Part shown: positions 7,983 through 14,113 of the stretch, one piece after another
How the letters are laid out: each line of letters starts with the position of its first letter
Position numbering within the stretch: position 1 is the first letter of the stretch
Source: Dehalococcoidia bacterium
GTDB lineage: Bacteria; Chloroflexota; Dehalococcoidia; UBA3495
Reading direction: 5' to 3'
DNA length: 16,404 nucleotides
NCBI GenBank assembly: GCA_028822675.1
Contig: JAPKDE010000039.1
Coordinates: 1 to 16,404, forward strand
Notes under the pieces: generated by a model
What the model saw: only the letters and a program-made list of their open reading frames with translations
What the model was told of the DNA's origin: nothing
Databases searched by the model: none
Program-made: the position numbers and the translations under genes

Positions 7983-10900
7983 TTAGCCTGCGGAGTCGGT
8001 TGGCGCTGGGCTAGTAGTGATCTGGTGGCCAGTGGCGTAACTCGCGGCTTCGGTACGGTTGGCGGTATTGGTTTTGTTGAGGATGCTGCTGACGTGATTG
8101 CCCACAGTCTTAATGTTGATGAATAATTCTTCGCCAATCTCCCGATCAGTCTTGCCTCCACTGACGAGCCGTAAAACCTCGACTTCCCGTTGAGTAAAAC
8201 CGTCGGGGTAAGCGGGCTTCTTAGCCGGAAAGGATTCGGCCTGTGTTTGGAGTGCGGCAATCCGTTCCATGAGAGGGCGCAAGCCCAACTCAGTGGAAAT
8301 TCCCAACGATTCGTCGAGCAATTCCATGGCTTTGGCACGGTCGCTTCGTCCCTTTCGGGCAAGCAAAGTCTCAGCGTAGTCGAATCAACTCGACGCTACT
8401 TCAGGTTTATAACCAGCGGCCCGGCAGAATTCCAACGAGTCCTCAAAGTGATTGATGGCTTGGACTGGGTTTCCAATCGTCCGAGCAGTAAGGCCAAGCA
8501 GATGGTCAACGGAGACTGACAACGCCGACACGAAAGTACCTTGCCACGGCCCGAGGGCGGTGTATTGCTCTGCAGCGAGAGCCACATCGCCGGAATTTAC
8601 GGCTTCCAATGCGAGTCCTAAAGTGACGATCCCGGCAATCAAAGGCATGGCTTTGCCAGCGGCAATAACAACTTGGGTAGCGGTTTTTGCAGCGTCTTGA
8701 TGCCGATGAACACCAGATATTCCCTGGATTAAGGGAATCATTCCAGCGATGGACGCGTATTCAAACGTTGGACCCGGCTCAACATGGCGCATAGCTTCTA
8801 AAGAACGCTCCAAGTACGTTGCGCCCAGTTCGAATTCCCTTAGCCGGTACGCCACCAAGATTTTACTGGCTAGCAGGCGAGGGTTCAAAGGGAGCAACTC
8901 CAACCCCTGGTCAGCCAACCTCTGGGCTGTCTGCCAGTCGCCCTCTGCCTCGCCCAGCGATGCGGCTCTATAAAAAGTGCCACAGGAAAGCTGCCGGTCG
9001 CGAAGTCTTTCTGCAAGTACCATTTCTTCTGCAACATCCCGTTTAGCAGTGTCCCGGTTGCCAGTTGCTATCTCGGCTGATATCGCGCCCCAACAGGCCA
9101 GCAATTCCTCCACAGGGTTATCTACGGTCCTGGCAAGTTCCATCGCGCGCGGTACTTTATCCAAGATCTCCTGCCACTTGAAATGCCACATGCTCACGTA
9201 GGATTCTTCGGCGATGGTTTTCAATTCCAAAGCTGGGTCGTTTTCTTGCCGTGCGATCGCTAATGCTTTGCTGAAGGCGGCTGCCGCAGCCTCATAATCT
9301 CCTTCCTGGGAGCCTGCGATTCTTCCCAACAAGGACAAGAGCCGGCCAGCCGTTCGGGAATCCGGAGGAACCATCTCCAAGGCAAGCGATATGCGTTTGC
9401 TGGCTCCAATGTTGAGGCCGGCGATGTTGGGAACCGGGTGTTCAGCCACCGCCACTGCCCGTTCCACATCGTCGGACGCAGCGAAATAGTTAAAGGCCTG
9501 GTCAAGGTTTCTGTGCGTCTCCGGAAACTGACTTCTGCCGAGGTCCGCTAATTGTGCCCGGCCCAGACCAAACAGCAACGACGCAGATTCAGCGTCAATC
9601 TCACCCTTTTCCTTGGCTGCCAAACCTTGCTGAAAGAGGGCCAAAGCCTGGTCATGGGCGTAGGCTTCAAGGCTGAATTCTCCAGCCATAAGGGAGTATC
9701 TAACGAGTTTTTCTGGACCTGATATCGTCTTGGCTTGAGAGAAATGGTAGGCCAATTCCCCCGCATGTTGCGCGAGATAGTCCTGATGTATTTCTTCTAG
9801 CGCCTCAGCGGTGGCAAGATGGATTTGGGCTCGCTGTATGGGCGCGATTGCCTCGTAAACGGCTTGCTGTAGGAGCGCATGACTAAATCGATAACCCCCG
9901 TGTCCGGAAGGTATGGTTTCGGCGGTCCCAGTAGTATTGGCTTCGTCTATCGCGTCGGAGAAATCGTCTTCAGAAATATCTGGGGTGAGGGTGCGGAGCA
10001 ATGGAAGGTCGAAGTCTCGACAGATAACAGCGGCGGACCTCAATATCTCGTTGCAGGTCTCTGAAACCCGCCCCAAGCACCGGGAGATTGCTTCTCTGAC
10101 AGCCTGAGGAATACCGTCCACCCGGTCTTCGTTTCGGCTCATTTCCTCCGGGCTGACCGCGCTAACAACCTCGCCAACAAATAAGGTATTGCCTTCTGTG
10201 CGTTGATGTAACGAGTCAACCGCTGCTTCGGGTACTGTGACCCCAGCCCGCGCTTCGACGAGATTGCCTACTTCTTCTCGATTGAGGCCGGTCAGCAGTA
10301 CCCGGTGGAAGTTGTTTTCACGGACGAGGCTGCCCAGCGTTTGTGCCAACGGGTGGCTTCCGGTCACTTCATTGTCCCGGTAGGTGCCCACGACCATGAC
10401 GGAAGAAGATGAAATCTCGCGGGCAAGAAACTCCAATAGTAATAGAGATGACTCGTCGGCCCAATGAAGATCGTCTAGGACGAGCACCAGTGGCTGAGAC
10501 CGGCTGACGTTTTTCAGGAATGTGGTGATGGAGAAAAACAGGCGGAAACGGGCTTGCTCGAGTCCAAGTGCAGGAGGCTGGCCCGATCTGTCCAAGATGG
10601 CGGTTAGCTCGGGAAGTATCAGGGCGATGTCAGCAGCCCCCGGCCCCATGCCCTGGCGGAGTTTCCCTGCATCGGTCGTTTCCAACTGAGCGCGAATCAA
10701 CTGCAACCATGGCCAATAAGGAGGTGCTCCGGTTTGTTCATGACACCAGCCCCACAGCACTTGCGCGCCACGTTGCTCAGCCTCGTTTGTGAGTTCGCGG
10801 GCGGTGCTGGTCTTGCCCATTCCGGGCTCTCCAGCAAGCATGACCATTTGACTGCGTCCGGCCAGGGTCGTGTCCAAAACTGAGACGAGAGCGCTCATCT

Positions 10901-11106: not shown

Positions 11107-11655
11107 ATGACTACTACTGACAAACCTAAATTGATAGTTCTTGACCCCACGGTTGCCCCGAGGGAGATGGTCCAGGCCATGGCCCCGGCGCTGGAAGGTC
11201 TTGGTGGACAGTCCATTGGATTCCTATGGAACAGCAAGCCCAACGGCGACCTGCTCTTTGAGCGGCTGGAAAAACTTCTCCGAGAGAAATACGAGATTGC
11301 CAACGTCGTCTATAAGCGTAAGCCAACAGCCTCGCTGCCAGCCAAGGACGAGGTGATCGACGAACTGGTCGAGTCCGTCCAGGCGGTGATCGTCGGTCTT
11401 GCGGATTGAGGGTCCTGCACATCGTGGAGTATCCACGACGCAGTTGAACTGGAAAAACGGGGCATCCGAACCGTGGTGGTCGGCACCGACCGTTTCAGGC
11501 GGTTGGGAGAAGTCGAGCGCCGCTCCCTGGGCATGCCGGAACTTACCATGGCCATCGCAGAGCACCCTCTGGGCGGTCTGCAGGCAGAAAAACTCCTGGC
11601 CAAGGCCGACGGACTGCTTGAGCAAGTAGTGCAAGGTCTGACCGAGCAGCGGTAG
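11107..11655 (+). CDS. UGSC-motif selenoprotein (in-frame TGA = selenocysteine at residue 101)
   Basis: One frame of 182 sense codons (11107 to TAG at 11653-11655) contains a single TGA at 11407-11409. The TGA is followed by GGG TCC TGC, giving L-A-D-U-G-S-C-T-S-W. The downstream part continues S-I-H-D-A-V-E-L-E-K-R-G and V-V-V-G-T-D-R-F and keeps coding character to the end. This is the motif naming the UGSC family of (seleno)proteins, whose Sec-free members have Cys in place of Sec. The Sec/Cys pair U-x-x-C suggests a redox active site, but the family's reaction is unknown to me. The N-terminal half (I-V-L-D-P-T at 10-15 onward) and the second half look like alternating beta/alpha segments. 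A SECIS-like hairpin begins 5 nt after the TGA. Standard annotation would give a 100-aa truncated protein or a pseudogene. Start: ATG, SD weak. Confidence 0.85.
11415..11443 (+). promoter_or_regulatory. bacterial SECIS-like element directing selenocysteine at 11407
   Basis: In the mRNA just after the UGA, CUGC (11415-11418) pairs with GCAG (11440-11443), then an asymmetric internal loop (11419-11421 against 11439). UCGUGGA (11422-11428) pairs perfectly with UCCACGA (11432-11438), leaving a GUA apical loop (or a 6-bp stem with loop AGUAU). The loop starts 19 nt after the UGA, within the usual spacing for bacterial SECIS elements, and has G at the first loop position, the base expected for SelB binding. 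It is entirely within the coding sequence, as bacterial SECIS elements are. Confidence 0.75.
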
Positions 11656-12012
11656 CTAGGCCGCGTAATGGGCGAACGCTTTGACGACCAAATGGTGGTC
11701 GTCAAAGTGAAAGCACTCTGCAGACAATCCCCGGTGTCCCTGGTAGTAGATGGTTATGCTGTTGGCGCCAATCAGGGTCGTTATAAGATTGAAATGAAGA
11801 TTTGGGTTGAGGTCTAATGCCTTAGTCCAGTATTCTCCCACCGCAGATTTCCCGGTCAGAGTGCCTGATGGCTCATTGACCAGGAGGACAATTGCCGGCG
11901 AGCTCATCTCAAACGTATCAAAGTAGCGGGAGAGGATTCGATTAAGGTCGTGGTCGTTCTATGAATCGATCCAGTCCGCTGCAAAATGGGTGACAAACGT
12001 TTCGTCAATCAC
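11656..12012 (-). pseudogene. SnoaL-like/NTF2-fold protein interrupted by an amber codon
   Basis: From GTG 12012 (GGAG SD 6 nt upstream on the minus strand) a 118-codon frame runs to TAG 11656. It reads M-I-D-E-T-F-V-T-H-F-A-A-D-W-I-D-S, then TAG (11961-11959, codon 18), then N-D-H-D-L-N-R-I-L-S-R-Y-F and onward to a C-terminal F-A-H-Y-A-A. This is the pattern of small SnoaL-like proteins (cone-shaped NTF2 fold; polyketide cyclase, isomerase or unknown roles). In those proteins the segment is commonly W-I-x-x-W-N-x-H-D-L, so the stop replaces a Trp. A single TGG to TAG change explains it. The remaining frame is undamaged. The stop codon abuts that of the selenoprotein gene, tail to tail. An internal ATG at 11907 could make an 83-aa fragment lacking the first helix and would probably not fold. 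Confidence 0.7.
11679..11707. repeat. perfect 12-bp inverted repeat at the convergent gene junction
   Basis: CTTTGACGACCA (11679-11690) and TGGTCGTCAAAG (11696-11707) flank a 5-nt AATGG loop. It begins 24 nt after the selenoprotein stop, inside the 3' end of the SnoaL-like gene. It lacks a T-tract, so it is not a standard terminator, but as the first strong hairpin of the selenoprotein mRNA 3' end it could protect the transcript or assist termination. Confidence 0.75.
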
Positions 12013-12119
12013 AGGTTCTCCGTTTTATTTACTGAATTTTATCTACTGAATCTCCGCTGTCGGCTGGTTGTATTCTAGTACCATTGCACCAAGCCGTATC
12101 GTTTATTGAGAGGCCCACA

Positions 12120-13151
12120 TTGCCCGACCTAGTATCCGAACAACTGGAAGTGGACGACGACTTTGAGGCCATCCAGAGCCTTTATCTGGAGCGCGGTTGG
12201 ACCGACGGTCTACCGGTAGTACCGCCCACGCCGGAGCGGGTCGCTGCCATGCTGGCTGCCACTCCCCTCAGTCCTCAGGACATCATCGGCGAGATTCCTC
12301 CCAACTGGGGCTCGGCAACCGTGGAGAAGCTGGCGGTGAACGCCGTGATGGCTGGCTGCAAGCCTGAATACCTGCCGGTGGTGATTGCCGCAGTGGAGGC
12401 CATGTGCGATGAGGTGTTCAACCTCTACGCCATCCAAGCCACCACTCACCCTTGTGCGCCGCTGATCATCGTCAACGGGCCCATTTGCGACGATATTGGG
12501 TTGCACGGCGGCTCTGGTGCTTACGGGCCCGGCTGGCAGCCCAACGCGACCATTGGACGCGCGGTCAGACTGGCGCAATTGAACATCGGCGGTGCCCATC
12601 CGGGCGTGGGGGATATGTCCACCCAGGGCGCGCCCTCCAAGTACACCTACTGCGTGGCCGAAAACGAAGAGGCCAACCCGTGGGAGCCGCTGTACATTGA
12701 ACGCGGTTTTCGCGCCAATCAAAGCACCGTGACAGTGATGGCCGGTGAACCACCTCACAACATCAACGACCACTCTGGCAGCTCTGCCGAAGACATTCTG
12801 ACCATCATCGCAGGGGCCATATCGATCACGGGGGCCAACAACGCCTATACCGGCGGCGAGACCCTGCTGGCTCTGGGTCCAGAGCACGCAGCAACCATCG
12901 CCGAAGACGGTTTTGGCAAAAAAGAAATCAGGGAGTGGCTGCACCAGAACGCGCGCATACCTCTGGAGCGGTACACCCACGAGACCATGATGGAGCGGTT
13001 CCAGCAGATACCAGACGGCCCTGTGCCGATGGTCGTAGACCCAGACCTGCTCACCATCATCGTCTTGGGCGGTCCCGGCAAACATTCCTCATGGGTGCCT
13101 ACGTTTGGCGGCTCCACCCACTCGGCCACGAAAGAGATTCGACGGGTTTAG
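12120..13151 (+). CDS. conserved protein of unknown function, possible UGSC-protein partner
   Basis: 344-aa protein starting at TTG 12120 with a good SD (GAGAGG at 12108-12113, 6 nt away). An in-frame TTG at 12084 would add 12 residues but has no SD. The recognisable signature is G-W-T-D-G-L-P-V-V-P-P-T-P-E-R-V near residues 27-42, followed by G-E-I-P-P-N-W-G-S-A-T-V-E-K-L-A-V-N. Later come conserved-looking glycine-rich loops (G-L-H-G-G-S-G-A-Y-G-P-G; G-V-G-D-M-S-T-Q-G) and a C-terminal I-I-V-L-G-G-P-G-K-H. I recognise this as a conserved uncharacterised family but cannot assign a reaction. Several Cys (A-G-C-K, M-C-D-E, H-P-C-A, P-I-C-D) could interact with a redox partner. Its nearness to the UGSC gene, separated only by an antisense SnoaL gene, suggests a functional pair; this is inference. 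There are no signal peptide or membrane segments. Confidence 0.65.
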   Translation: MPDLVSEQLEVDDDFEAIQSLYLERGWTDGLPVVPPTPERVAAMLAATPLSPQDIIGEIPPNWGSATVEKLAVNAVMAGCKPEYLPVVIAAVEAMCDEVFNLYAIQATTHPCAPLIIVNGPICDDIGLHGGSGAYGPGWQPNATIGRAVRLAQLNIGGAHPGVGDMSTQGAPSKYTYCVAENEEANPWEPLYIERGFRANQSTVTVMAGEPPHNINDHSGSSAEDILTIIAGAISITGANNAYTGGETLLALGPEHAATIAEDGFGKKEIREWLHQNARIPLERYTHETMMERFQQIPDGPVPMVVDPDLLTIIVLGGPGKHSSWVPTFGGSTHSATKEIRRV

Positions 13152-13191: not shown

Positions 13192-14113
13192 ATGCCAGAT
13201 GGTCCCTAGATTGATTTAATCGTGCCGCGTAATTTAGAGATCCCTTCTTTCTACCAAGTAGCTGAACAGATGGGATTCCACGCCTTGTGGTTCACCGAAA
13301 CGCTGTTTAGCCGAGCACCGACCGGTCCGGGATAGACCTCCGTCGGCAGTGGCGGGGATCGCGCGAGCGCCCTGGGCACCGACGCCGCGGAGACATCGCG
13401 GATACGGCTGGGGATTGCGCCGTCAGTGAAGCCTGACTCGTTAGTGTCTTTTGCCACGGAAACAGCCACCAAGACATCCTTTCCCACGGGCGGTTGAGCC
13501 TGGGATTGTCCCAGCATAGTTGGCTTGACGAAGGTGTATCGGAAGGCTGTCGGCCAAGGGTTGGTGTTCGTTTACAAGAGACTATTACGCTCCTGAATCG
13601 GTTGTGGAGCGAGGACGAGGTCTCGTTCAAGGGCAGTCATCACCATCTGGAAAAGGCCTCTATTGACGTCAGGCCGGTCCAAGAAGGGGGTATCTCGCTC
13701 TTTGTCGCCGGGGCTACCAGTGCTTCTATTCGGCAGGCAGCGACTTTGGCGGATGGATAGGTGCATCCTTCAGGGGGAATTCCTGAAGGTGTTGCGCGCG
13801 GTTGTGAATTTGTAAAACGATTAGCCCGCGACGCAGGCCGAGACCCAGATTCAATTGAGTTGGGGAAAATCATCTATCTCTCCATAGATGACAATTGTCG
13901 CCGGGCAAAAAATCAAATCGCACCGCTTCTACAATCGTTCTATACCGGCTACAACGTCGATAGTTGGTGCGCTTTTGGCAATCCGGCTGAGTGTGCCGCC
14001 TTCATCCAAGGCTTCCTTGATGGGGGATAACGACGTTGATGCTATGTCTAGTGCCGGCCAATGTCGAACATCTTGAGCGGTTACACAAAGAGGTTTTGCC
14101 TCTGCTAAGGTGA
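13192..14113 (+). pseudogene. luciferase-like (LLM class) monooxygenase remnant
   Basis: Joining frames recovers a flavin/F420 luciferase-like oxidoreductase. From ATG 13192 (SD-like GGGAG upstream): I-D-L-I-V-P-R-N-L-E-I-P-S-F-Y-Q-V-A-E-Q-M-G-F then H-A-L-W-F-T-E-T. Further on are T-S-R-I-R-L-G-I-A, then G-R-L-S-L-G-L-S (from about 13491), L-L-N-R-L-W-S-E-D-E-V-S-F-K-G, a G-G-I-S-L-F-V-A-G segment and A-A-T-L-A-D-G. The C-terminal part H-L-E-R-L-H-K-E-V-L-P ends at TGA 14111. Lesions are TAG at 13207-13209, TAG at 13333-13335, a frameshift near 13490, TAG at 13758-13760 where A-D-G-W is expected, and a frameshift near 14028. The stretch 13320-13390 is poorly matched and may be scrambled. The gene is clearly non-functional as one protein. 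The start is uncertain. Confidence 0.75.

Follow-up and report, generated by a model that had tools for sequence, protein, structure and literature searches.

The selenium-dependent reductases of glycine and proline and the thioredoxin-fold selenoproteins are the described systems with which the gene studied here can best be compared. In glycine reductase, the selenocysteine (Sec) of subunit B takes part in the reductive cleavage of a C-N bond. Thioredoxin-fold selenoproteins have a set order of strands and helices, in which the CxxC or UxxC motif comes after the first strand. For the UGSC family itself, we know of no biochemistry. The family has been in print since at least the GOS selenoproteome paper of 2008, passages of which place it among the commonest selenoprotein families of marine metagenomes (255 Sec forms in GOS), suggest a thioredoxin-like fold for it, and describe its fusion to a domain named 'Unknown_1' (PMC2398784). 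Passages of a survey published in 2016, covering more than 5,200 organisms, give 33 UGSC selenoproteins in total, and a 2026 review, in the passage concerned, counts UGSC among the families with largely uncharacterised functions. In a further paper, GrdB-like proteins are tied to fluoroacetate reduction in Cloacibacillus, with a transporter-type gene in the operon (PMC10838667); these proteins are subunit-B-like and act on a substrate that is not an amino acid, and as they belong to another family and another phylum they are considered here as an analogy only.

The window analysed is the whole stretch of 16,404 nucleotides of contig JAPKDE010000039.1, from a Dehalococcoidia bacterium. The following features (with the evidence in brackets) define the gene and its in-frame TGA:

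11107-11655, + strand: UGSC-family selenoprotein gene, 182 aa with Sec101 (translation, family scores, relatives, codon substitutions)
11407-11409, + strand: in-frame TGA read as selenocysteine, residue 101 (TGA in 29 of 29 relatives; Cys in P0113, P0120 and P0121)
11416-11418, + strand: codon of Cys104, a likely resolving cysteine (invariant in 66 aligned sequences)

Translation of 11107-11655 with TGA as U produced 182 residues (M...ADUGSCTSW...QR) with a single TGA and a terminal TAG, Sec101 standing in the context GLADUGSCTSWSIHDAVE. The initial annotation had proposed that the frame is coding on either side of the TGA at 11407-11409 and that it encodes the U-G-S-C motif of a known family, and both proposals were borne out: the matches to NCBIfam NF041046 (UGSC_fam, 'UGSC family (seleno)protein'; 137.7 bits, cut-off 125) and to Pfam PF24696 (UGSC; 167.7 bits, cut-off 25) span the TGA, and substitutions behind it are mostly synonymous. 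Downstream of the TGA, the window gene differs from its relative L001 by 43 synonymous and 4 non-synonymous codon changes; the weakest of eight close relatives in this respect, L010, has 29 synonymous and 11 non-synonymous changes. These comparisons of the window with eight relatives indicate that the codons 3' of the TGA are under purifying selection.

A search of genome contigs yielded 29 relatives, all of which have a TGA at the same codon, at identities down to 38%. The nearest is 91% identical to the window gene, and the ten nearest are found in metagenome-assembled genomes (MAGs) of Chloroflexi, Dehalococcoidia or SAR202; judged from its relatives, the window falls close to SAR202/Dehalococcoidia. 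Cys homologues aligned at position 101, which had been suggested as a check of the Sec assignment, were found in P0113, P0120 and P0121, distant database proteins (44% identical) that have CGSC, with Cys at the Sec position. Among the database proteins listed (best 120 of 215), 116 of 120 are 100-104 aa long and are thus cut at the TGA, in line with the expectation that conventional gene calling hides the gene. The Sec codon is present in 148 of 152 distinct UGSC copies outside the window, and the sole invariant columns among 66 diverse UGSC domains, an alignment from which the Ser and Gly copies of genome G025 (described below) were left out, are 101 (Sec or Cys), G102 and C104. The window gene resembles the family defined by NF041046 and PF24696 in score, UGSC motif and marine source, with no departure seen, and on these sequence criteria 11107-11655 is an intact member of a selenoprotein family that is known but functionally unexplained.

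Genes of the Sec machinery were searched in the genomes of the 29 relatives. SelA scored over the curated cut-off in 24 of the 29 genomes, SelB in 23 and SelD in 26, and all 26 SelD-positive genomes have an in-frame TGA within the SelD match itself. A tRNA-Sec of at least 64 bits was found in 22 of the 29 (26 over the cut-off if matches of about 47-50 bits are counted, which may be other tRNAs). Nearly all of these genomes are MAGs, so that missing Sec genes among the 29 mean little. The genome of the nearest relative, G001, has SelA (557 bits), SelB (348), SelD (377) and a tRNA-Sec with anticodon tca, and UGA is presumably decoded as Sec in the window's own organism. Two pieces in G001 match the 3' part of its tRNA-Sec gene at 99% and 95% (L152, L154 and G001:C4:69481-69542 being the gene and the pieces); they are perhaps integration-site duplicates.

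Immediately behind the UGA, a hairpin was delimited as follows:

11422-11438, + strand: upper stem of a bacterial-SECIS-like hairpin, 7 bp (window fold; covariation)
11429-11431, + strand: apical GUA loop (direct reading; fold)
11416-11442, + strand: lower stem, 11416-11418 with 11440-11442, weakly conserved (67% of cells paired)

A two-part stem with a GUA loop after the UGA had been claimed in the initial annotation. Its upper stem and loop can be read in the window (11422-11438, TCGTGGA-GTA-TCCACGA) and covary among relatives, whereas conservation of the lower stem is partial. In one or other of two registers, 131 of 147 distinct post-UGA stretches form all five of the stem pairs tested, a count in which pairing is favoured because registers were assigned by fit, and 146 of 147 form at least four of the five. 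Pairs were counted on 110 of the 147 sequences (103 distinct rows), the 37 dropped being mostly a group with the stem shifted by one base; on this set, 90.8% of cells are paired in the seven-pair upper helix and 67% in the three-pair lower helix. The whole structure has 41 doubly changed cells versus 8.6 (sd 2.6) in shuffles, and pairing drops from 83.7% to 27-58% when the hairpin partner is slid by 1-3 columns. Under a null that draws synonymous codons and keeps the protein, the 147 sequences have a median z of -1.22, with 44 of 147 at 5%, versus 5, 6, 7 and 11 of 147 at 5% for four control regions taken from these genes. The window hairpin taken alone did not reach 5% against the protein-preserving null (z -1.57, fraction 0.075), so that support for the hairpin comes from the set of relatives. 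The Rfam scan of the window returned no family at gathering score.

Downstream of the UGSC gene, on the same strand, lies a second gene whose product is referred to here as the partner:

12084-13151, + strand: partner protein, 355 aa, fused to UGSC in other genomes (loci, profile, fusion counts)

No Pfam or NCBIfam family matched this protein. A relative of it is encoded downstream of UGSC on the same strand at 27 of the 29 loci, and at the remaining two the contig stops just past UGSC; at L003 the partner is split over several frames, and at L026 and L028 UGSC and partner form one ORF. Of the UGSC domains outside the window, 86 are flanked by at least 1500 bases on either side, and for 85 of these the partner occurs on the same strand no more than 700 bases away: 55 are fused without an intervening stop, 2 are in the same frame with a TGA between and 28 are separate, the last of the 86 having no partner. 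With repeats removed, the partner is beside or fused to UGSC in 83 of 84 distinct copies (58 of 59 in G025, 25 of 25 elsewhere). Another 84 UGSC domains lie too close to the end of a stretch, 17 of them without a partner in view. The order of the domains is variable (UGSC-partner or partner-UGSC). The partner is thus near-universal in the loci fetched, an association that is new as far as checked, being absent from the passages of the 2008 paper (PMC2398784); the product of 12084-13151 is perhaps the 'Unknown_1' domain of that paper (PMC2398784). Residues invariant in 39 aligned partner sequences include D41-P44, N154, G158, R159, C190, E193 and W200, and Cys92 is nearly invariant in the same alignment. 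The partner profile matches at least 7,999 database proteins, and no Pfam domain was found in the 120 matches listed.

Other genes of the window encode hydrolases, a LigB-type dioxygenase and a thiamine pyrophosphate (TPP) enzyme. The TPP enzyme, within the segment 6289-10898, is close upstream of UGSC and is 84-93% conserved in the ten closest loci. In the window it is separated from UGSC by an AAA-ATPase gene (8385-10898, minus strand), which among the 29 loci has a match only in L003, elsewhere on the contig. Between UGSC and the partner, an ORF of 83 residues on the minus strand (11656-11907) matched no Pfam family, and among the 29 loci has a match in L009 only (74%). Near the intact UGSC gene there is also a decaying one, a luciferase-like monooxygenase gene (13494-14030) interrupted by a TAG (13758-13760) and, upstream of this, by a frame change; relatives have intact copies.

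The structure of the UGSC domain was modelled with AlphaFold2 from 66 aligned sequences (pLDDT 94.5). The model has five alternating strand-helix units, with Sec101 between strand 3 (93-99) and helix 3 (102-117), and its matches in the PDB are of generic type (Rossmann, flavodoxin and receiver folds). A model of the fused UGSC-partner protein of L026 has a pLDDT of 94.0 and a pTM of 0.93, so that the partner too is predicted with confidence. The UGSC domain is predicted to be five-stranded and Rossmann/flavodoxin-like, not thioredoxin-like, which is new as far as checked. UGSC and the thioredoxin-like UxxC selenoproteins have in common the two residues between Sec and Cys, but differ in strand-helix order and in the position of Sec: in the predicted model strands and helices alternate and Sec follows the third strand, which is not the thioredoxin order.

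Proteins of family PF07355, to which selenoprotein B of glycine/sarcosine/betaine reductase and PrdB of D-proline reductase belong, were collected from ten related genomes, full-length in two and as short GRDB-like forms in nine. When 19 of them were read on, all 19 had a TGA at the end of the Pfam match or a few codons past it; the PF07355 model ends just before Sec, which would explain why family scans miss a link to UGSC. The UGSC profile was aligned with hhalign to the Sec module of full-length subunit B (3 sequences; P 1.3e-5, 81% probability) and to the short forms (13 sequences; P 1.2e-5, 81% probability), in both cases with Sec on Sec. In the controls, P was 0.25 and 0.19 for the reversed subunit-B profiles and 0.17 for the partner profile, and 60 column shuffles of each subunit-B profile reached 0.11 and 0.053 at best. 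This relation between the Sec modules of UGSC and subunit B, predicted by a single method from small profiles of 3 and 13 sequences at 81% probability, is new as far as checked. The likeness is limited to the C-terminal Sec module, in which Sec and the residues following it as far as the HP.G segment are aligned; unlike the window protein, selenoprotein B and PrdB have the PF07355 domain, and their partner is different. PF07355 was not listed for the window protein (P0001) at E up to 10, a search in which HMMER filters drop most weak matches, and no reductase subunit was named among the window proteins scanned. The openly licensed literature yielded no published link between UGSC and glycine reductase, and the passages that name both give them as separate families. 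The short GRDB-like proteins L040-L045, L107-L112 and L115-L119, from SAR202-type and other genomes, continue through the TGA into a UPxC or UGxC module.

The number of UGSC matches per genome ranges from 1 to 13 in the genomes of the 29 relatives except G025, a groundwater Chloroflexi MAG of 5.0 Mb. Searched alone, G025 gave 150 scored UGSC matches of 208 candidates, 146 with TGA (143 with one, 3 with two) and 4 without, an expansion that is new as far as checked. The Sec column is U in 94 of the 98 distinct copies fetched from G025 (Ser in 3, Gly in 1) and in all 54 fetched from other genomes. Strain mixture was dismissed as the source of the many matches, since no pair among the 97 distinct UGSC domains of G025 is 95% identical or more (2 reach 90%) and contig C9 has 18 of the matches and C99 has 20. 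Use of TGA as a sense codon throughout G025 was also rejected, as 12 of 57 partner ORFs and 9 of 59 solute-binding ORFs have TGA as their first stop and exactly one TGA is found in 143 of the 150 scored UGSC matches. SelA, SelB and SelD are present in G025. The main result against its selenoprotein count is that no tRNA-Sec was found in it, among 150 scored of 734 candidates and with short contigs that may be missing; the best candidate, at 43.1 bits, is below the cut-off and is a tRNA-Ser by ARAGORN, and BLAST of the tRNA-Sec of genome G018 against G025 gave no match. A second genome, G056 (2.7 Mb), has 46 UGSC matches, with TGA in 41 of the 42 listed, and a tRNA-Sec is present. No literature joining SAR202 with a selenoprotein was found among openly licensed papers.

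In 16 G025 stretches, 91 flanking ORFs of 150 aa or more lie within 2.5 kb, and 47 of these encode SBP_bac_5 solute-binding proteins; in twenty G025 stretches, 52 of 73 UGSC domains are accompanied on the same strand by such a protein no more than 600 bases away and 21 of 73 are not, the stretches having been chosen partly for their clusters of UGSC genes. At 15 loci (including L025), where 95 of 147 flanking ORFs were scanned, SBP_bac_5 was outside the 25 commonest families, and the largest flanking family had at most 5 members (alpha/beta-hydrolase types); the link to solute-binding proteins was observed in a single genome, G025. Many of the G025 copies (L025, L070, L076-L104, L123-L142) are fused UGSC-partner proteins adjoining a solute-binding protein. 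In L125 (G025:C101:30937-31443) a second TGA falls exactly on the Cys104 codon (UGTU), which would be either a Sec-Sec motif or the mark of a decayed copy. Ser or Gly replaces Sec in L123, L124, L125 and L126, three of them sharing a frame with the partner and the fourth adjoining it; these are possibly inactive or altered paralogues.

We consider it fairly probable that the intact UGSC selenoprotein is the catalytic half of a two-component reductase that uses selenolate chemistry on imported small molecules. This reading is favoured because of the invariant positions 101, G102 and C104, the near-obligate partner, the relation of the Sec module to that of subunit B, and the binding proteins that accompany UGSC in G025. 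The UGA would be decoded by SelB and tRNA-Sec with the hairpin directly behind it, and UGSC would form the catalytic half, and the product of 12084-13151 the other half, of an enzyme that elsewhere is one chain. Sec101, which in the model of a Rossmann-like domain follows strand 3 and precedes helix 3, would as a selenolate attack a small substrate held at the partner interface, by analogy with subunit B in the glycine and proline reductases, and would cleave it reductively. Cys104 would resolve the Se-bound intermediate or the oxidised selenium, and a cellular reductant would reset the enzyme. The initial annotation had suggested a redox enzyme using Sec101 and Cys104; the partner gene, the fold, the relation to subunit B and the expansion go beyond that annotation. 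Many UGSC relatives are marine and probably aerobic, whereas the classical reductases are anaerobic.

A general redox protein of thiol-disulfide or peroxide type, as in the thioredoxin-like interpretation of the 2008 paper, for which the partner would be no more than a docking or regulatory domain, would agree with the UxxC motif and with the invariance of position 101 and Cys104. We regard it as unlikely, given that the five predicted strand-helix units, with Sec after strand 3, do not follow the thioredoxin order, that the near-obligate partner has about 350 residues and invariant residues of its own, and that the 146 paralogues of G025, many of them by solute-binding proteins, suit substrate diversification over housekeeping.

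It is distinctly improbable that the protein serves in selenium or metal handling or in repair of oxidised thiols, its Sec binding a metal or a reactive electrophile with no nutrient turnover. Nothing direct speaks for such a role; Cys190 of the partner is invariant and Cys92 nearly so, and family-5 binding proteins can carry metals, but the G025 neighbours include the catabolic enzymes PrpD, 2-hydroxyacid dehydrogenase and CoA-transferase (2-4 of the 91 ORFs each), the window encodes hydrolases, a LigB-type dioxygenase and a TPP enzyme, and 146 divergent copies would hardly be needed for metal handling. That the gene is a pseudogene or a sequencing error, with TGA a real stop and the downstream part not made, has next to no probability, for although the broken luciferase-like gene at 13494-14030 shows that decay occurs in the window, TGA is kept in 29 of 29 relatives, 148 of 152 distinct copies outside the window retain the Sec codon, and the sequence downstream of the TGA has synonymous substitutions and a covarying hairpin.

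Beyond the preferred reading of UGSC and its partner as a two-component reductase, we put forward, tentatively and at less than even confidence, that the pair may form, as a sister group of the glycine and proline reductases, a new class of reductases that depend on selenium and would degrade many imported organic compounds in SAR202-type and groundwater Chloroflexi, with one genome having at least 146 such selenoprotein genes. The published maximum of bacterial selenoprotein genes was 57, then 63, in the passages of the paper concerned (PMC13188914). If true, the 146 genes of G025 would be more than twice that maximum of 63, and if the count stands, the published ceiling would be far too low. 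The main interest of the locus lies in what its relatives reveal about the UGSC family: with the partner defined, the fold predicted and an enzyme of known chemistry as a relative, 'function unknown' would become a question of purification and assay.
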